A stretch of 64,000 bases of DNA from Demequina sp. NBRC 110055. Its GTDB lineage: Bacteria > Actinomycetota > Actinomycetes > Actinomycetales > Demequinaceae. Positions 19,434 to 27,246 of the stretch are shown piece after piece (position 1 is the first letter of the stretch; the number at the start of each line of letters is the position of its first letter). The position numbers and the translations under genes were made by a program. The stretch is taken from assembly GCF_002090135.1 (NCBI RefSeq), contig NZ_BBRL01000004.1, positions 930,001 to 994,000 on the forward strand. Direction: 5' to 3'. The notes below the pieces were generated by a model that saw only the letters and a list, made by a program, of their open reading frames with translations, was not told the origin of the DNA and ran no database searches.

Positions 19434-20288
19434 TCACAGGCGCTCTTGGAGTCCCTGAGCCAGCGCGTCCAGCGTCTCGCTCGTGCCGGCATCGATCTTC
19501 ACGGATGCTCGGCGATCCCCCTTGGTCGCGCCTCGATTGACGATGACGACGGGGACGCCGCGCCGGGACGCGCGTGAGACGAGACGCAAGCCGGAGTTCA
19601 CGGCGAGCGACGAGCCGGCGACCACGAGCGCGCCGGCCGCGTCGATGATCTCTTCGGCGGCCCGGGTCCATGCCGCGGGCACGTATTCCCCGAAGAACAC
19701 CACATCGGGCTTGAGGATCCCGCCGCACACGAGGCACCCGGGCACCGACACCGTCTGCCACGCGCGCGGCGCGACGTCGCCGTCGGGACCGAGTTCCACG
19801 CCATCGGGCACACCGAGCACGGGATTGTCGCGCTCGAGCCGCTGGGCGACCTCCGCGCGGGACGACGCGGACCCGCACGCGAGGCAGGTCACGCCGCGCA
19901 TGTTGCCGTGGAGCTCGACCACGCGCCGCGACCCCGCGCGCAGGTGGAGCCCATCGACGTTCTGGGTGACGAGACCCGTCACGATCCCGGCGGTCTCGAG
20001 CGCGGCCAGCGCCGCGTGTCCGGCGTTGGGGCGCGTGCTCGCGAACGCCTTCCAACCCAGGTGGGAACCGACCCAGTACCGGCGCCGGTTGGCCTCGTCG
20101 CCCACGAAGTCCTGGAACGTCATGGGGGTGCGCCGGGGAGAGTCGGCGCCGCGGTAGTCGGGGATGCCGGAGTCGGTCGAGACGCCCGCGCCGGTCAGCA
20201 CGCCGACGGTGCGGCCGGCCAGCACGTCCAGGGCGCGGGACAGCTCGGTGGTCACCGGTGCGGGGCGGCGCACGTCCTCGGTCGTCAC
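19434..20288 (-). CDS. Sir2-family NAD+-dependent protein deacylase
   Basis: A 284-residue sirtuin starting at GTG 20288 after GGAGG. Motifs in order: GAGVSTDSGIPDYRG (NAD pocket), TQNVDGLH with the catalytic His in VELHGN, two zinc-binding Cys pairs (CLACG, CLVCG) and VVAGSSLAV. It removes acyl groups from lysines using NAD+, giving nicotinamide and O-acyl-ADP-ribose. The zinc insert is longer than in CobB. The GNAT-sirtuin relationship in the genome cannot be judged here. Probably monocistronic. Confidence 0.92.
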   Translation of the reverse strand: MTTEDVRRPAPVTTELSRALDVLAGRTVGVLTGAGVSTDSGIPDYRGADSPRRTPMTFQDFVGDEANRRRYWVGSHLGWKAFASTRPNAGHAALAALETAGIVTGLVTQNVDGLHLRAGSRRVVELHGNMRGVTCLACGSASSRAEVAQRLERDNPVLGVPDGVELGPDGDVAPRAWQTVSVPGCLVCGGILKPDVVFFGEYVPAAWTRAAEEIIDAAGALVVAGSSLAVNSGLRLVSRASRRGVPVVIVNRGATKGDRRASVKIDAGTSETLDALAQGLQERL

Positions 20289-20436
20289 GGGCTACCTCCA
20301 GGCCGTCTCGCTCATGTGGGTTCACTCGATCGTCGCACGGGGCGCGCTGCCCGTGTCGCCACTTATCGGCCTATGCCTGGTGCGGCTTCTGTGGAAAGCC
20401 TCCCCTTGAGCGGTGTTGCCCGCTACTGTCGGGGCC

Positions 20437-21564
20437 ATGGCATCGGGGGCGCATGCATACCTGACGGGACTCGGCAGCTATCTGCCAGGGGATCCGGTCG
20501 ACAACGACGGCATTGCGGCGCGCCTGGGAGGCGACGACAGAGTCACCGATCGGATCCGCCGGCGCGTGCTCGAGGAAAACGGCATCCGCACCCGCCACTA
20601 CGCGCTCGACGCGCACGGTGAGCCCACCGAGCTCAACGAGGAACTCGCGGTGAAGGCGCTGCAGGCAGCGTTAGCCGACCGCGGCATCGGCCCCGCGGAC
20701 CTGCGCATGCTCGCCGTCGCGACCACTCAGGGCGACGCGCTCGTGCCTGGCTTCGGCTCCATGGTGCACGGACGCCTGGGCGGAGGGCCGATGCAGGTGC
20801 TGACCGCCGCGGGCGTGTGCGCCTCGAGCCTCGCGGCCCTTGATGCCGCCGTCGCCAAGATTCGCCTGGGTGACCACCCGCGCGCCGCCGTGGTGGCCTC
20901 GGAGCTGCCCAGCCGAAGCCTGCGCCAGCGGCGCTTCGACGGCATCAACGCCCGCATGGATTCGCACTTCCTGCGCTGGATGCTCTCCGACGGTGCCGGC
21001 GCCGCCGTCGTCGAGTTTCAGCCCCACCCCACCCGGCCGTCGCTGCGCGTGGACTGGGTACGCCACGTCTCTCTCGCCCACGACCACGACGTGTGTATGC
21101 GCTCGGGCATGGACGGCATCGACCCCGCCGTGGGCTCCACGTGGCAGGACGTGCCGGTGGCGGAGGCCGAGGCCAGGGGCATGTTCGTGCTGCGCCAGGA
21201 CACGGCGGTGCTCGGGGAGCTCGCGGAGGCGGGCATCGCCCAGTTCGAGGAACTCGTCGATACGGGGCTCATCGACCTCAAGCACCTCGACCACGTCGTC
21301 TGCCACTACAGCACCCACGCCTTTCGCGACCTCGCGTTCGATGGCATCAAGAAGCGCATGCCGAGCCTCGACACGGACCGCTGGTACTCCAACCTCGAGA
21401 GTCGCGGCAACACGGGTTCGGCCAGCATCTTCATCGCGCTCGAGGAGGCCTGGCACTCGGGTCGCTTCCTCCCGGGCCAGACCGTCTTGCTCGCCGTTCC
21501 CGAGTCGGCCCGCTTCGCGTTCGCCTTTGCCCACCTCACCGTCGTCGGCCCCGCCGGCAGTTAA
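20437..21564 (+). CDS. FabH-like 3-oxoacyl-ACP synthase III homologue
   Basis: A 375-residue thiolase-fold ketosynthase from ATG 20437. The triad is complete: Cys in AAGVCASSL, His in VCHYSTHAF and Asn in SRGNTGSAS. The surroundings differ from housekeeping FabH (usual HQAN is changed), so it probably uses an unusual acyl starter or performs a non-decarboxylative condensation. It leads a tight cluster: a haem-oxygenase-like oxidase begins 11 bases after its stop with AAGGAG, then an uncharacterised protein with no gap, then a small zinc/membrane protein. Together they look like a dedicated lipid or small-molecule pathway. Product unknown. Confidence 0.85.
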   Translation: MASGAHAYLTGLGSYLPGDPVDNDGIAARLGGDDRVTDRIRRRVLEENGIRTRHYALDAHGEPTELNEELAVKALQAALADRGIGPADLRMLAVATTQGDALVPGFGSMVHGRLGGGPMQVLTAAGVCASSLAALDAAVAKIRLGDHPRAAVVASELPSRSLRQRRFDGINARMDSHFLRWMLSDGAGAAVVEFQPHPTRPSLRVDWVRHVSLAHDHDVCMRSGMDGIDPAVGSTWQDVPVAEAEARGMFVLRQDTAVLGELAEAGIAQFEELVDTGLIDLKHLDHVVCHYSTHAFRDLAFDGIKKRMPSLDTDRWYSNLESRGNTGSASIFIALEEAWHSGRFLPGQTVLLAVPESARFAFAFAHLTVVGPAGS

Positions 21565-21575
21565 GGAGACACCTC

Positions 21576-22244
21576 GTGACCGTCACCGAAGCCCCCTCGC
21601 TCGCCGACAGCCTCGCGCAGGTGTGGGCCGACTTTGAAGACCAGCTCGACCGCGTCCCCGTCCTGCAACGCCTCGCCGACGGCACCGTGACCCTCGAGGA
21701 CTATCAGCGCTTGCTGTTCAACCTTCGTCAGCAGGTGGTCGACGGCTCGCCGTGGATCTCGCGCGCCGCCTCGAACTTCGACATCGATCACTTCGAGCTG
21801 CGCACGGCCGCGATCCGTCACGCCGAGGAGGAGCACCGCGACTTCCTGATGCTCGAGCGCGACTACGTGGCTGTGGGCGGCTCACTCGAGGAGCTGCGCG
21901 CGGGCCGCAAGAACATCGGCTCCGAGGCGCTGTCGGGCTTCATGTTCACGTATGCCGACCGGCCCAATCCCGTGGGCCTGCTGGGTGCCATGTTCATCAT
22001 CGAGGGCCTGGGCGCCCGCCGCGCCGCCGGATGGGCGCGACGCTTCCAAGAGGTGCTGGGGCTCGCCGACGGTCAGGTGCACTTCATGCTCTATCACCAG
22101 GAGGCCGACGGTGAGCACACGGGGAACCTGGAGGCCATCCTCACCTCGGGCATGATCGACGACCATGCCGGCGCGGAGATCGTCCGCTGCGCGCAGGTCG
22201 TCGCCAGGCTTTACGCGATGCAGCTGACGGAACTGGACAACTAG
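21576..22244 (+). CDS. Haem-oxygenase-like non-haem iron oxidase (HDO superfamily)
   Basis: A 222-residue all-helical protein starting at GTG 21576. It carries the HDO metal-ligand pattern: Glu84 and His87 (HAEEEH), Glu143 (FIIEGLG), then His174, Asp178 and His181 in HQEADGEH (H-x3-D-x2-H). Characterised relatives include UndA (fatty acid to alkene), CADD and BesC, which use one or two irons and O2. Keeping all ligands implies an active oxygenase. Its place after a ketosynthase suggests that it acts on the acyl product, for example by decarboxylation or C-H/C-N oxidation. That is inference. Confidence 0.8.
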   Translation: MTVTEAPSLADSLAQVWADFEDQLDRVPVLQRLADGTVTLEDYQRLLFNLRQQVVDGSPWISRAASNFDIDHFELRTAAIRHAEEEHRDFLMLERDYVAVGGSLEELRAGRKNIGSEALSGFMFTYADRPNPVGLLGAMFIIEGLGARRAAGWARRFQEVLGLADGQVHFMLYHQEADGEHTGNLEAILTSGMIDDHAGAEIVRCAQVVARLYAMQLTELDN

Positions 22245-23072
22245 ATGGGGGCCGCGCGCTCGAATCCGAGCATGTGGGAGGCGGTCTACGCCGATCCCTC
22301 CGTCCCGCTCGAGCGCGCCGTGGTGCGCCAGATCATCGCCGACCAGCAGCGCCCCTCGCGCCGGTGGTTCTACCCCATCGCCCGCATCCTGTCGCGCGTC
22401 ACGGTGGCGGTGATCTCGGTCGTCAAACGGGTGGCCCCGTTTCGCTGGATGCCGTTGGCGATGATGGACTGGCTGTGCGTGTGGTTCCTGCGCCGCGGCG
22501 TCTCGCCCGATGCTGTCGAGCTGCTCATCCGGCACTTCGTGGTCGAGACCAACCTGGTCAACTTCATCATCCGCAACACCCCGGTCGCGATGGAGCCGGT
22601 GGCGCTGCGCCCCACCGCGCTCGCGGGCCTCGGCGACCAGGCGGTCGTCGAGCACGACGTCAACGTGTACGACGTGCTCATCGCCCTCGACGGCGCCCGC
22701 ATCACGCGCCCGGAGTCGCTGAACTTCGCCCATCTCGACGTGCCCGCCCTGGACGCGGAGCGCGGCCGACGCCGGTTCCTGCGCCTCGACATCCAGACCG
22801 CGTTGTGCCTGATGAACATCCCGTTCTCGATGGCGCTGACGCTCGAGGAGTACCGCCGCGCCGTCCACTCCATGCGCTTCGACGACTCGTTCCTCGAGAT
22901 CCTCACGCTGCTCACGGGAGATGACGAGTTCCGCCACTGGAAGGCGGGCGGCATGAGCCTGTGGATGGACTCCAACGTCGACGTTCCGCAGATGGTGTAC
23001 CGGCATGCGCTGGTCTGTGAGTACGCGCACGCGCGGCTGGTGGAGCACGCCGCATCGACCCTGGAAAGGTGA
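22245..23072 (+). CDS. Conserved hypothetical protein of the ketosynthase/HDO cluster
   Basis: A 275-residue protein whose ATG directly follows the HDO stop, so translation is coupled. I do not recognise the family. A hydrophobic stretch near residues 44-85 (ILSRVTVAVISVVKRVAPF; MPLAMMDWLCVWFL) could lie in or on the membrane. The rest is helical with conserved-looking acidic and His residues (LIRHFVVETNLVNFIIRN; HDVNVYDVLIALD; DDEFRHWKAGGMSLW). It may be an enzyme or membrane-associated partner for the HDO product. No defined motif supports a specific reaction. Confidence 0.6.
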   Translation: MGAARSNPSMWEAVYADPSVPLERAVVRQIIADQQRPSRRWFYPIARILSRVTVAVISVVKRVAPFRWMPLAMMDWLCVWFLRRGVSPDAVELLIRHFVVETNLVNFIIRNTPVAMEPVALRPTALAGLGDQAVVEHDVNVYDVLIALDGARITRPESLNFAHLDVPALDAERGRRRFLRLDIQTALCLMNIPFSMALTLEEYRRAVHSMRFDDSFLEILTLLTGDDEFRHWKAGGMSLWMDSNVDVPQMVYRHALVCEYAHARLVEHAASTLER

Positions 23073-23078
23073 GTTCAC

Positions 23079-23396
23079 ATGGGCCACGACGCAACCGACG
23101 GCACCCTGGTATGTGACATGTGCGGCGTCTCCCTCGACGGGGACTCGTGGCTCGCCGTCGCCGTGACACGCCCGCATGCGACGAGCCTCGGCGACGTGGG
23201 CGCGGTCTTCTGCGGCCAGCCCCACGCCGCCGCCTGGATCGCCTCGCCCCTGCCCGATCCCGCGCCGCTCCACGCCGAGCCGCGCTCCGGCCGCGATCGC
23301 GCCGCGACCGCCGGCTTCTGGGCCGTCGTCGCCGTGGTCGCGACCTTCTCGCTCGCGGGAGTCGTGGCGGTCGCCCAGTGGGCAGGACTGGTCTGA
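23079..23396 (+). CDS. Small zinc-ribbon protein with one membrane helix
   Basis: A 105-residue protein starting six bases after the previous gene. A CDMC pair near residue 12 and FCGQPHAAAW near residue 46 could bind a metal. A single transmembrane helix lies at the C terminus (FWAVVAVVATFSLAGVVAVA). It ends the co-directional cluster, 10 bases before the convergent cardiolipin synthase stop. Function unknown; it may tether the pathway to the membrane or be an unrelated hitchhiker. Confidence 0.6.
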   Translation: MGHDATDGTLVCDMCGVSLDGDSWLAVAVTRPHATSLGDVGAVFCGQPHAAAWIASPLPDPAPLHAEPRSGRDRAATAGFWAVVAVVATFSLAGVVAVAQWAGLV

Positions 23397-23406
23397 CCTC
23401 GAGCCG

Positions 23407-24855
23407 CTATTGGATGGCCGACGTCAGCCGCGTGATGCTCTCGAGCGTGCGCCGGTACAGGGGGCGCTGTCGCCAGGTCTCGACGGTGAGCTGGCTTGAA
23501 GACGCCTGGTAGGTGTCCGTGATGGCGGTCAGTTCTTGCGCGACCGCCTCGTCGTAGCAGATCAGCGAGAGCTCGGAGTTGAGCTCGAACGAGCGCATGT
23601 CCATGTTGCTCGAGCCCACGATCGCCACCTTGCCGTCGACCACGATGTACTTCGAGTGCAGGAGGGTTGGCGCCCGGTACAGGTAGATCTCGACGCCCGC
23701 CTCGAGCAGCACCGCGTAGTACGACCGCTGCGCGTAGCCGATCATCCACTGGTCCATCGCCTCGGAGTTGATCATGCGCACCCGCACGCCGCGGTGTACG
23801 GCGGAGACGATCGCCTCCAGCAGGGCCTCGGAGGGCACGAAGTAGGGGTTCACGATGATGATGTCGGTGCGCGCGAGATGCAACAGGTGGGTGAAAACCG
23901 CGAGGTTGTTCTCGCCGTCGAATCCGGGTCCACTCGGTAAGACCTGCAGGGAGACGCCCGGAAGCGAGGATGCCTCGTCGCTCGGGGGCTGTAGCGGGTC
24001 ATCGAACGAACCACCCTCCGAGACCCAGTCGGTCATGAACAGCGTGGCGAGTTCGATCGCGATCGGCCCCGACGCGCGCACCACCAGCTCGTCATAGGCG
24101 ATGTCGTCCTTGCGGTGGTACGTGCGGTCGATCATGTTCTGCGAACCGGTGTATCCGATGGCGTTGTCGACCACCACGATCTTGCGGTGGTTGCGCAGGT
24201 CGGGGCGGACGTACCCCTTGCCGGGAAGGCGCAGCGGCAGGATGGCGCGGTGCGCGATTCGCGCGGAGGCGAGGAACTGCAGCATGGGCTTCTTGCCGTC
24301 GTAGCTGCGCGATCCCCACTCGTCGTAGAGGACCCTGACGTCGACTCCACGGCCCTTGGCCGCCGCGAGCGCCTCGAAGAAGGGGAGCGTGGTGTCGTCG
24401 AGGGTCATCGCGTAGTACTCGACCCACACGCTGTGGCGGGCGGAGTCGATGTCGCGCACGATCGCCTCGAGCGATGCGCCGTAGTCATTGAGGATGTCGA
24501 GCGAGTTTCCCGCCATGACGGGCAGCCGCCCGTAGTCCCACGCCAGGCGCTCCACGGAGTGGTACGCCGGGTCCACCGCGGCGTCAATGACGCCGGCGCC
24601 CATGCGCCGCTTGGCCTCCACCACCTGGGCGTCGATGGTGGCGTTGATGCGCGTCTGGACGTCGCGCCGCGCCTGCGGCAGCTTGTAGTGCCCCAACAAC
24701 AGGAAGGCCAACCAGCCGGGCACAGGCAAAATGACGATGAGCAGGATCCAGGCCATGCCCGCGGTCGGACGTCGCCGGGGCGGGATCACCACCACGGCCA
24801 GCACGATCAGCATCCACCAGAGGACGGCGGAGAACGTCGCCGGAACCGTGATCAT
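23407..24855 (-). CDS. cls: Cardiolipin synthase (phospholipase D family)
   Basis: A 482-residue protein from ATG 24855. Two N-terminal membrane helices (residues 6-22 and 34-54) precede two HKD domains: NHRKIVVVD with GSQNM, and HSKYIVVD with GSSNMDMRSF. It joins two phosphatidylglycerols, or PG and another lipid, into cardiolipin at the inner membrane face. Length and topology match bacterial ClsA. Divergently arranged with the Pif1-like helicase, the gap being 54 bases. Confidence 0.92.
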   Translation of the reverse strand: MITVPATFSAVLWWMLIVLAVVVIPPRRRPTAGMAWILLIVILPVPGWLAFLLLGHYKLPQARRDVQTRINATIDAQVVEAKRRMGAGVIDAAVDPAYHSVERLAWDYGRLPVMAGNSLDILNDYGASLEAIVRDIDSARHSVWVEYYAMTLDDTTLPFFEALAAAKGRGVDVRVLYDEWGSRSYDGKKPMLQFLASARIAHRAILPLRLPGKGYVRPDLRNHRKIVVVDNAIGYTGSQNMIDRTYHRKDDIAYDELVVRASGPIAIELATLFMTDWVSEGGSFDDPLQPPSDEASSLPGVSLQVLPSGPGFDGENNLAVFTHLLHLARTDIIIVNPYFVPSEALLEAIVSAVHRGVRVRMINSEAMDQWMIGYAQRSYYAVLLEAGVEIYLYRAPTLLHSKYIVVDGKVAIVGSSNMDMRSFELNSELSLICYDEAVAQELTAITDTYQASSSQLTVETWRQRPLYRRTLESITRLTSAIQ

Positions 24856-24909
24856 GGCCGTCAGAGTACGGGACGCCGTGGCCGTAGCCGCGGCTAGGCT
24901 CGCACCACC

Positions 24910-27246
24910 ATGAGCGCTCAGCAAACGTCGCCGGCGGGCATCACCCTCACCGACGAGTTCGAGCGCGCCCTCGCGCTGCTGCACGCCGGCGCCAACGTCT
25001 TCCTGACGGGCCGGGCCGGCACCGGTAAGTCCACGCTCATCCGTCACTTTCTCAGCGACACCAGCCGCCGTGCCGTTACCGTCGCGCCGACCGGCATCGC
25101 CGCGCTCAACGTGGACGGCTTCACCATCCACCGTCTGTTCTCCTTCCCCATGGGGGTGACGGAGGACACGGTGCTGAGCCGCGCCTACTACCCGGGCCGG
25201 TTCGCCGCGACGCTCAAGGAACTCGAGATCCTCATCGTCGACGAGGCCTCCATGGTGCGCGCCGACCTGTTCGATGCGATGGTCGCGGCGCTCGAGAGGT
25301 TCGGACCCCACCCCGGCGAGCCGTGCGGCGGAGTCCAGCTGGTGCTCGTCGGCGACCTCCATCAGCTTCCGCCCGTCGTGCGCGACGGCGAGGTCGACCA
25401 CTTCGATGCGCACTACGGCACGCCCTACTTCTTCTCCGCCCGTCGCTTCGAGCGGGGCCACTTCCCCGTGGTCGAACTCACCCACGTGTTCCGCCAACAC
25501 GGTGACGCGGCGCTCGTCGACATCCTCAACGCCGTGCGCGAGGGCGCCCTCCTCGAGGACGCGAGGCGGACCCTCAACGCCCGCACCGATCCGGACTTCG
25601 AGCCGCCCGCCCACGAGTTCTGGCTGACCCTCGCCACCACGAACCGCATCGTCCGCTCCCGCAACCGGCAGATGCTTGAGCGCCTCGACGCCCGACCCCG
25701 CTCCTACCGCGCCAGCATCCGGGGCGACATGGACGGCTTTGAGCTACCCACCGAAGAGGTGCTCGACCTCGCCGTCGGCGCCCAGGTGATGCTGCTCAGC
25801 AACGACCCGGCCGACCGCTGGGCCAACGGCACGCTGGGCCGCATCAGGGCGCTGATCGACACGCCGAACGGCCCCGAGGCGCGCGTGGGACTCCAGGACG
25901 GCTCCGTGGTCGCGGTCGGCGCTCATACCTGGGAGATCACTCGTCCGATCGTCACCGGCGGCGGGCTCGGCCGCGAGGTGGTCGGCACCTTCACGCAGCT
26001 GCCCATGAAGCTCGCGTGGGCCATCACCATCCACAAGTCCCAGGGCCAGACCCTCGAGCGCGTGGTCGTGGACCTCACCGGCGGCACCTTCGCCAACGGC
26101 CAGCTCTACGTGGCGCTCAGCCGCTGCACGAGCCTCGAGGGGCTGGTCCTCAAGCGCGACGTGCTGCCGCGCGACCTCAAGACCGACGGACGCATCCGCC
26201 GCTTCCTTGGTGCCGGTTCTCAGGCGGCCGATGCCGTGGCGGGGGAGGCGTACCTGGCCGTCCTCACCGTGGGTCAGGCGGGCGACCGCTACCGTCCGCG
26301 CCCGGTCGAGATCGCCGTCGTGACCGACGACGGCGACGAGGCCACGACGGTGGTGAACCCGACGAGCGACCTGTACGAGGCCCAGGCCCAATTCGGCCTC
26401 ACCACCCGGGACGTGCAGCTCGCGCCCGTGCTGGCCGAGGCTTGGGCCTCTCTGTCGCCCCTGCTCGCGGGCCGCGTGCCCGTGGGCGTGGGCATCGACC
26501 AGGCGCTCGGCTGGATCGACTTTGAACTCAAGCGTCACGGGCACGTCGAGGCCATGGCGCTCGGAGTCGAGCTGCCCGCCGCGGCGCTTGCGGACGCCGA
26601 CCGCGCCGCGCTGCGCGCACCCACCGCGCTCGCCCGCGCCCGCGCGATCCGGGATGCCGCCGCCCGCTGGCGCCTCGGTCATGCGCCCCTCACGGCAGCA
26701 GGCACCGCCTTCTCGGCCCTTCCGCGCGGCCGCGGCTACCTGCTGGCCCGCACCACGGGCGACGAGGGGACGGCGGGCCCGACCGGCTTCGTCGTGGGCG
26801 GCAACCTCTCCGCCGAGGACGATCCGGCGGCGGTGCTCGCCGACCTGCTCGGTGCCGCCTGGGGACGCGTCATCGATAAGGACGAGGCCGTGATGACCCG
26901 GCTGCGAGAGGCCGAGCGTCACTTCGGCGTCGAGGTGCTACCGCCCGACCTCACCCTCGAGGGGCCCGCGGACCCCGCAACCCTACTGACGCCCGGCGCC
27001 CGCGTGTGTTTCACCGGCACCGTGATGTCCGCCCGCGGCATGATCGACCGCTCCCGCATGGAGCGGATGGCGACGGCCGCCGGCCTGGTGCCCGTCCCGT
27101 CGGTCACGAAGACCCGCACCGACCTGCTGGTGGTCGCCGAGCGCGGTACCCAGTCGGGTAAGGCCCGCAAGGCCGCGGAGTACGGCAAGCCCATCCTTGA
27201 CGCCGAGGCGTTCCTCACCTGGGTCGACGAGGCGCGGTCATCGTGA
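24910..27246 (+). CDS. Pif1/RecD-like DNA helicase with C-terminal BRCT domain
   Basis: A 778-residue SF1B helicase. Walker A is GRAGTGKST (Lys40), Walker B LIVDEASM (Asp111, Glu112), motif III GDLHQLPPV, and the C-terminal motifs VMLLSNDPADRWANGTLG and AWAITIHKSQGQTL (with YVALSRCTSLEGL) match Pif1-type enzymes. Residues about 687-778 form a BRCT domain like that of NAD+ DNA ligase (VCFTGTVMSARGMIDR, LVVAERGTQSGKARKA). The fusion suggests a 5'-3' helicase recruited to repair or replication intermediates. A middle region (about 430-680) is unassigned. Confidence 0.88.
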   Translation: MSAQQTSPAGITLTDEFERALALLHAGANVFLTGRAGTGKSTLIRHFLSDTSRRAVTVAPTGIAALNVDGFTIHRLFSFPMGVTEDTVLSRAYYPGRFAATLKELEILIVDEASMVRADLFDAMVAALERFGPHPGEPCGGVQLVLVGDLHQLPPVVRDGEVDHFDAHYGTPYFFSARRFERGHFPVVELTHVFRQHGDAALVDILNAVREGALLEDARRTLNARTDPDFEPPAHEFWLTLATTNRIVRSRNRQMLERLDARPRSYRASIRGDMDGFELPTEEVLDLAVGAQVMLLSNDPADRWANGTLGRIRALIDTPNGPEARVGLQDGSVVAVGAHTWEITRPIVTGGGLGREVVGTFTQLPMKLAWAITIHKSQGQTLERVVVDLTGGTFANGQLYVALSRCTSLEGLVLKRDVLPRDLKTDGRIRRFLGAGSQAADAVAGEAYLAVLTVGQAGDRYRPRPVEIAVVTDDGDEATTVVNPTSDLYEAQAQFGLTTRDVQLAPVLAEAWASLSPLLAGRVPVGVGIDQALGWIDFELKRHGHVEAMALGVELPAAALADADRAALRAPTALARARAIRDAAARWRLGHAPLTAAGTAFSALPRGRGYLLARTTGDEGTAGPTGFVVGGNLSAEDDPAAVLADLLGAAWGRVIDKDEAVMTRLREAERHFGVEVLPPDLTLEGPADPATLLTPGARVCFTGTVMSARGMIDRSRMERMATAAGLVPVPSVTKTRTDLLVVAERGTQSGKARKAAEYGKPILDAEAFLTWVDEARSS

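Follow-up and report, generated by a model that had tools for sequence, protein, structure and literature searches.

The stretch analysed here, hereafter the window, comprises 64,000 nucleotides (positions 930,001 to 994,000 of the forward strand of contig NZ_BBRL01000004.1, assembly GCF_002090135.1) from the 2.82 Mb genome of Demequina sp. NBRC 110055, and it carries three adjacent genes on one strand encoding a type III ketosynthase of the StlD/DarB neighbourhood, a haem-oxygenase-fold oxidase (HDO) and a protein of the family DUF6999 (Table 1). An earlier note, made from the letters of the window, had supposed that these genes, along with a small downstream one, might constitute an undescribed lipid-derived pathway. 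This idea is now supported by the linkage of the genes across six phyla, the frequent fusion of the first two in one frame, and the lipid-enzyme genes at the flanks, and it was not contradicted by sequence searches of solved structures, which returned no homologue with a known and unrelated function. On balance, the favoured reading is that the three proteins form a conserved three-component O2-dependent acyl-condensation cassette, a description of which was not found in the open-licence PMC texts searched.

Table 1. Features of the cassette and of the gene following it (positions in the window)
Feature	Position	Strand	Details	Basis
Alternative ketosynthase start, in-frame GTG	20413	+		sequence
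StlD/DarB-like ketosynthase III	20437..21564	+	375 amino acids	PDB, NCBIfam, alignment
Ketosynthase catalytic residues	C128 20818-20820, H290 21304-21306, N325 21409-21411	+		alignment
AAGGAG, likely ribosome-binding site of the HDO gene	21563..21568	+	overlaps the ketosynthase stop TAA (21562-21564)	direct reading
Haem-oxygenase-fold oxidase (HDO, PF14518)	21576..22244	+	222 amino acids, GTG start	
HDO helix-1 candidate metal ligands	H82 21819-21821, E86 21831-21833, D89 21840-21842	+		conservation
Further HDO candidate metal ligands	E143 22002-22004, H174 22095-22097, D178 22107-22109, H181 22116-22118	+		conservation
DUF6999 (PF22523) protein	22245..23072	+	275 amino acids; no base between its start and the HDO stop codon	
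CxxC protein with hydrophobic C-terminal stretch	23079..23396	+	105 amino acids; no Pfam match	by eye

The species genomes of the Genome Taxonomy Database (GTDB) were scanned with a profile of the oxidase, with patterns that had been built on conserved parts of the same family, and the best 80 of the 113 relatives, together with one Pseudoalteromonas plasmid locus, gave an HDO-anchored set of 81 loci spanning Actinomycetota, Pseudomonadota, Myxococcota, Bacillota, Bacteroidota and Fidelibacterota. The ketosynthase gene lies immediately upstream of the oxidase gene and on the same strand in all 81 loci, so that the association of the genes cannot be ascribed to chance, and DUF6999 follows downstream in 78, the other three records breaking off inside the oxidase gene or shortly beyond it. 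The genes, then, did stay together in the gene-neighbourhood comparison by which the earlier note had wished its proposal to be judged. The oxidase of one locus kept in the set (L088, labelled Bacillus sp. 2B10) matches that of the window as closely as the Novosphingobium one does, and the record is possibly a contamination; Bacillota were counted from Cohnella instead.

The same arrangement is met when DUF6999 serves as the anchor. In the sampling for this family, with the own or centre genome counted, it was found in 6 of 59 relatives, in 4 of 396 genomes of the same phylum and, for the Caulobacter phylum, in 9 of 398. All nine of the latter have the HDO and ketosynthase genes upstream, six of them with divergent oxidases of 34-37% identity to the best query, and two (G449, locus L066, and G682, locus L076) had already appeared in the oxidase scan. 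The Actinomycetota genomes found via DUF6999 number eight, the window's included, all with both oxidase and ketosynthase; four of them, the Demequina genomes G002, G024, G032 and G034, are shared with the oxidase scan. A single one of 72,556 plasmid records, that of Pseudoalteromonas, was positive for DUF6999, and in viral contigs one stretch fitted an HDO pattern, with no relative encoded. The pairwise distances of the three proteins correlate with r of 0.90, 0.87 and 0.83 over 36 loci, values that are inflated by common ancestry and do not amount to proof. As judged from the sequences, ketosynthase, HDO and DUF6999 thus occur as a unit with strong linkage; the association is well supported, and the chemistry outlined below is what we infer.

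The first gene had been read as a FabH-like enzyme with a full catalytic triad. The FabH fold and the triad stood, as Cys128, His290 and Asn325 are each conserved in 82 of 82 aligned sequences (the window and the 81 loci), but the protein is nearer to StlD/DarB. Its best PDB match is StlD (expectation value, E, 6.5e-67), and its top NCBIfam match is the StlD/DarB model NF005293 with 309.7 bits, the FabH-type models reaching 69.6 and 90.4 bits; the same model is also top for all ten other cassette ketosynthases tested (311.1-434.7 bits). Glu156, likewise present in 82 of 82 sequences, aligns to the Glu in StlD's SEVPS segment, a residue that we take to be important for cyclisation in StlD. A tree of 42 cassette ketosynthases (35 including that of the window, and seven from the extended loci described below), eight DarB and four FabH sequences groups the cassette enzymes with DarB, far from FabH, the eight DarB sequences forming one group (98/58). 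A housekeeping FabH was considered and rejected, since the genome of the window has a separate FabH (300.5 bits vs a cut-off of 292.1) and, of the 36 congeners sampled, only 4 share DUF6999 with the genome of the window. By these sequence comparisons the ketosynthase belongs to the StlD/DarB neighbourhood.

The comparison bears also on a head-to-head condensation of the OleA type, in which two long acyl chains would give a 2-alkyl-3-oxo acid, to be decarboxylated by the HDO to an enone or long-chain olefinic ketone. With NF006720, a model labelled 3-oxoacyl-ACP synthase III that is presumably OleA-like, the window ketosynthase reaches just 40.9 bits against 309.7 with the StlD/DarB model, and no OleBCD-like set was seen among the neighbours run through Pfam, a dedicated OleBCD search not having been made. 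Such a route is held to be quite improbable, although it would work with two plain acyl thioesters and fits the lipid-enzyme neighbours as well as the HDO carbon-carbon cleavage reviewed in PMC13108848.

A closer tie between the first two proteins is seen in their fusion. Ketosynthase and oxidase share a single stop-free frame in 13 of the 81 loci and in six of seven further extended loci, namely those of the divergent clade (of the eight loci that were extended, L190 from G682 duplicates the contig of L076, which leaves seven new ones). On the ketosynthase tree the fused state requires at least four changes by well-supported branches and six by parsimony, hence fusion or splitting happened repeatedly. 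This recurrent one-frame state suggests, at the level of sequence, that the oxidase works on what the ketosynthase makes. That the HDO would rather protect against oxidants or sense O2, without acting on the ketosynthase product, has a precedent in DtpC, an Acinetobacter HDO co-transcribed with katE, for which such a role is proposed (PMC13232832). For the cassette oxidase this role is highly improbable: the repeated fusion and the strict three-gene linkage point to a shared pathway, and no catalase was found among the neighbours run through Pfam.

The window HDO matches PF14518 with 39.7 bits (cut-off 28.9), the match beginning at residue 92, after helix 1. Its model has a predicted local distance difference test (pLDDT) value of 93.7 and a predicted template modelling score (pTM) of 0.90. 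The nearest solved fold is that of Sden_3740 (PDB 3dde), a protein of unknown function (Z 26.2, root-mean-square deviation 2.0, 215 aligned residues, 18% identity), which is also the sole match of the HDO profile among PDB sequences (E 1.2e-10); CADD follows with Z 24.1, and UndA (6p5q) gives template modelling (TM) scores of 0.75/0.70. UndA chains are among the fold matches, whereas UndA was not found by the PDB sequence search with the HDO protein or profile. In common with UndA, CADD, BesC, SznF and FlcD, the model of the cassette oxidase has the fold, the Glu of helix 2 and the H-x3-D-x2-H of helix 3. The title of PDB entry 3bjd, "putative 3-oxoacyl-ACP synthase", is misleading, the entry being the HDO FlcD according to PMC11363339.

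The putative metal site departs from that of the known enzymes. Characterised HDOs have the metal motif E-H-E-H-(D/E)-H, the first two ligands coming from helix 1 (PMC11363339, see also PMC13108848), and the earlier note had held that all the ligands are kept. This is borne out for E143, H174, D178 and H181, i.e., for the helix-2 Glu and the helix-3 H-D-H of the canonical motif, but not for the helix-1 pair. Position 84 is Glu in just 7 of 43 aligned HDO sequences, and H87, though present in 43 of 43 in the main alignment, is Gln in all six sequences of the divergent clade (6 of 12 rows), for which reasons E84 and H87 were rejected as ligands. In their stead H82, E86 and D89 are found in 43 of 43 sequences, as are E143, H174 and H181 (D178 in 42 of 43), and they are unchanged in the six divergent ones. 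In the profile alignment to 3dde, which has no gaps in this region, E86 stands opposite a Glu and D89 opposite a His, the Glu-x2-His of 3dde being Glu-x2-Asp in the cassette oxidase; the equivalence of D89 with the canonical His rests on this alignment and on conservation. Ligand residue numbers of the CADD-like enzyme were not found in the available part of PMC11965152. The metal set of the cassette HDO is thus probably H82/E86/D89 with E143 and H174/D178/H181. The cassette oxidase differs from UndA and the other HDOs also by being fused or strictly linked to a ketosynthase and by having DUF6999 as a third protein.

The uncharacterised 275-residue protein reported at zero gap behind the oxidase could be named, as it matches DUF6999 (PF22523) with 313.4 bits vs a cut-off of 27. 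The residues H97, F107, N111, P123, D138, N140, D182, A206, S209 and D213 are invariant in 39 sequences, and 18 further positions, R96, H137 and R205 among them, are nearly so (eight rows of the alignment have no C-terminal part). The model (pLDDT 89.9) had no Foldseek match to solved folds at E 0.001, and the best VIA-align Z was 4.7; no known fold was recognised in it, by which a new one is not proven. Two candidate assignments were considered. An HD-domain enzyme, suggested by the H...HD...D pattern, is unsupported with a best Foldseek E of 0.45 and the above Z of 4.7, the missing match not being an exclusion. A second HDO was not adopted, PolF, BesC, AetD and HrmI appearing at E 0.8-5 with TM scores of just 0.10-0.15.

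The canonical DarB loci offer the nearest comparison for the pathway. A ketosynthase over the curated StlD/DarB cut-off (450 bits for NF005293) was found in 8 of 148 genomes from the phylum of the Bacteroidota locus, and each of the eight DarB loci has a neighbour protein of ~300 residues, the eight being alignable as one family, which we take to be DarA from its place beside DarB. The start of this protein looks flavodoxin-like by eye, and two members matched no Pfam family. HDO and DUF6999 are absent from the fetched ~1.5-kb flanks of all eight loci, while a profile of the DarA-type neighbour found its match in 4 of 4 DarB control genomes vs 1 of 27 cassette genomes, the window genome being negative. 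The cassette thus resembles DarA/DarB and StlC/StlD in a ketosynthase of the same neighbourhood with its Cys-His-Asn triad and in a presumed oxidative step on the coupled product. It differs in pairing the ketosynthase, which scores under the cut-off, with a haem-oxygenase-fold oxidase and DUF6999 and not with a DarA-type protein.

A general scheme in which a condensation precedes the O2-dependent oxidation of its product is quite probable. The ketosynthase would load an acyl group on C128 and join it to another acyl thioester, supplied by fatty-acid metabolism. The model for this step would be DarB, joining a beta-ketoacyl and a 2-enoyl unit, and the released product would be a carbon-carbon coupled beta-dicarbonyl bearing a carboxylate. 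The adjacent HDO, tethered covalently in the fusions, would then bind this product at a dimetal site and oxidise it with O2. DarB makes 4-carboxy-2,5-dialkylcyclohexane-1,3-diones (PMC5515871), darA is listed as DAR-aromatase (PMC3949708), and UndA carries out the oxidative decarboxylation of a fatty acid (PMC11363339); accordingly, a reaction of the UndA kind would turn the DarB-type product into an aromatic one. The favoured step of the HDO would be such an oxidative decarboxylation of a 4-carboxy-2,5-dialkylcyclohexane-1,3-dione, with removal of a beta-carbon hydrogen and loss of CO2, which would result in a tautomer of a 2,5-dialkylresorcinol, a non-haem metal site replacing the step of the aromatase DarA. 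This specific outcome, a resorcinol or cyclohexanedione, is put forward only tentatively, as less likely than not. DUF6999 would bring a third function, which might lie in handling the product or in an additional step on ring or lipid. A bolder version, rather doubtful at present, is that of a widespread undescribed pathway with the ketosynthase-HDO as one two-step enzyme, bearing the new ligand set H-x3-E-x2-D on helix 1, that would couple two acyl chains and then use O2 for the oxidative decarboxylation and aromatisation of the ring, with DUF6999 as a third enzyme, of new fold, and with a product class, in actinobacteria, sphingomonads, myxobacteria and others, of lipids that are new or have yet to be assigned.

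Several copies of the cassette have genes of lipid enzymes at their flanks; the clustering of neighbours covered 44 of the 81 loci, their genes having been called by a rough procedure. All six divergent loci have an FA_desaturase homologue just upstream, and five of the six an FA_hydroxylase homologue as well; a related FA_hydroxylase precedes the Bacteroidota copy. In all three myxobacterial loci an FA_desaturase directly follows the fused gene, and in the Corallococcus locus, which reaches further, there follow DUF6999, a globin and a ferredoxin/FAD/NAD reductase. A protein combining MFS, acyltransferase and AMP-ligase parts (Aas-like) was found in six distinct loci, five of sphingomonads and one of Kiloniellales; the gene before the Fidelibacterota copy codes for a P450, and the one after the Microthrixaceae copy for an MMPL protein. 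A His-rich membrane-like protein of 185-193 residues is encoded directly upstream of the ketosynthase at L008:9657-10211 and L191:9944-10522, i.e., in the Pseudoalteromonas locus and in G827; the two are 64% identical, and the L008 member is without a Pfam match.

Such neighbours might also be expected if the ketosynthase made a beta-keto or modified fatty acid for a membrane lipid, with the HDO desaturating or hydroxylating it and DUF6999 passing it to phospholipid metabolism. The desaturase and FA_hydroxylase genes, the Aas-like protein beside the cassette in six loci, and a helix of the DUF6999 model (residues 37-63) that to the eye seems both hydrophobic and basic would agree with this. 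The Aas-like gene is, however, limited to the five sphingomonad loci and the Kiloniellales one, and there is no acyltransferase common to all the loci, so that this route is regarded as unlikely.

Against the proposed condensation and oxidation by the cassette, and its resorcinol outcome in particular, several observations have to be weighed. The cassette ketosynthases lie below the 450-bit cut-off, that of the window at 309.7 bits, and none of 15 cassette genomes has a match over it (best per genome 253.2-438.9 bits); hence the substrate and product may differ from those of StlD/DarB. The deepest fork of the tree among the cassette groups does not decide between a single clade next to DarB and groups enclosing DarB, and one cassette genome (G838) has a DarA-like gene as well. 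The change in helix 1 makes UndA chemistry not simply transferable to the cassette HDO, and the analysis yielded nothing that points directly to alkene formation of the UndA type. DUF6999, almost always present, finds no obvious place in the resorcinol scheme. At L079 of Corallococcus, one of the 78 loci with DUF6999, the latter is separated from the fused gene by a desaturase gene, and the DUF6999 of Brachybacterium (L060:8692-9231) is without its middle third, in frame, H97, D138 and N140 being gone, which may reflect decay, an assembly error or a shortened form. The lipid-gene neighbours, while pointing to lipid chemistry, are restricted to some lineages; other neighbours that were tested have no relation to lipids (UvrB, response regulator, chemotaxis receptor, beta-lactamase-like protein, glutathione transferase), and the window's own neighbours give no hint of the substrate.

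In Demequina, the cassette is present, besides the window genome and the four congeners mentioned, in Demequina oxidasica (L037). The neighbours of the cassette in the window were named sirtuin/CobB-like, cardiolipin-synthase-like and helicase by reading their translations. Among 21 close sirtuin-like loci the ketosynthase adjoins the sirtuin-like gene in three. In three others (L206, L207, L212) the sirtuin-like gene adjoins the helicase-like gene, which lies beyond the cassette in the window. The remaining 15 comprise L203, with a weak short helicase match, and 14 with neither in the fetched flanks. The block 20288-24910, containing the cassette, the small gene and the cardiolipin-synthase-like gene, is thus missing in three congeners, and this empty-site counterpart shows the block of 20.3-24.9 kb to have been gained or lost. 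The sirtuin-like matches in L202, L204 and L207 have one internal TAG each.

The 105-residue product of the gene following DUF6999, which had been counted in the set as a small zinc/membrane protein, does have a CxxC motif and a hydrophobic C-terminus by eye, but its membership did not hold. Among the neighbourhoods searched, a homologue beside the cassette was found only in the close Demequina relative NBRC 110051 (L011 and L018 being one genome), on which ground it was rejected as a fourth member and is probably not part of the cassette. A promoter scan found none, and the single terminator-like site lies inside the HDO gene, at the level of shuffles.

If the proposal is right, two enzyme families of current interest would acquire a new partner and probably new chemistry, and DUF6999 its first functional frame, while the natural ketosynthase-oxidase fusions would serve as single-protein test systems. 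HDOs with undetermined or unusual metal motifs are expected to reveal new functions and chemistries (PMC11363339), and with the changed helix-1 residues of the cassette oxidase one would be able to test directly in what way the metal site is tuned by the haem-oxygenase scaffold. For the organisms themselves, an unassigned lipid-derived metabolite would be predicted in bacteria of soil, plants and the sea.

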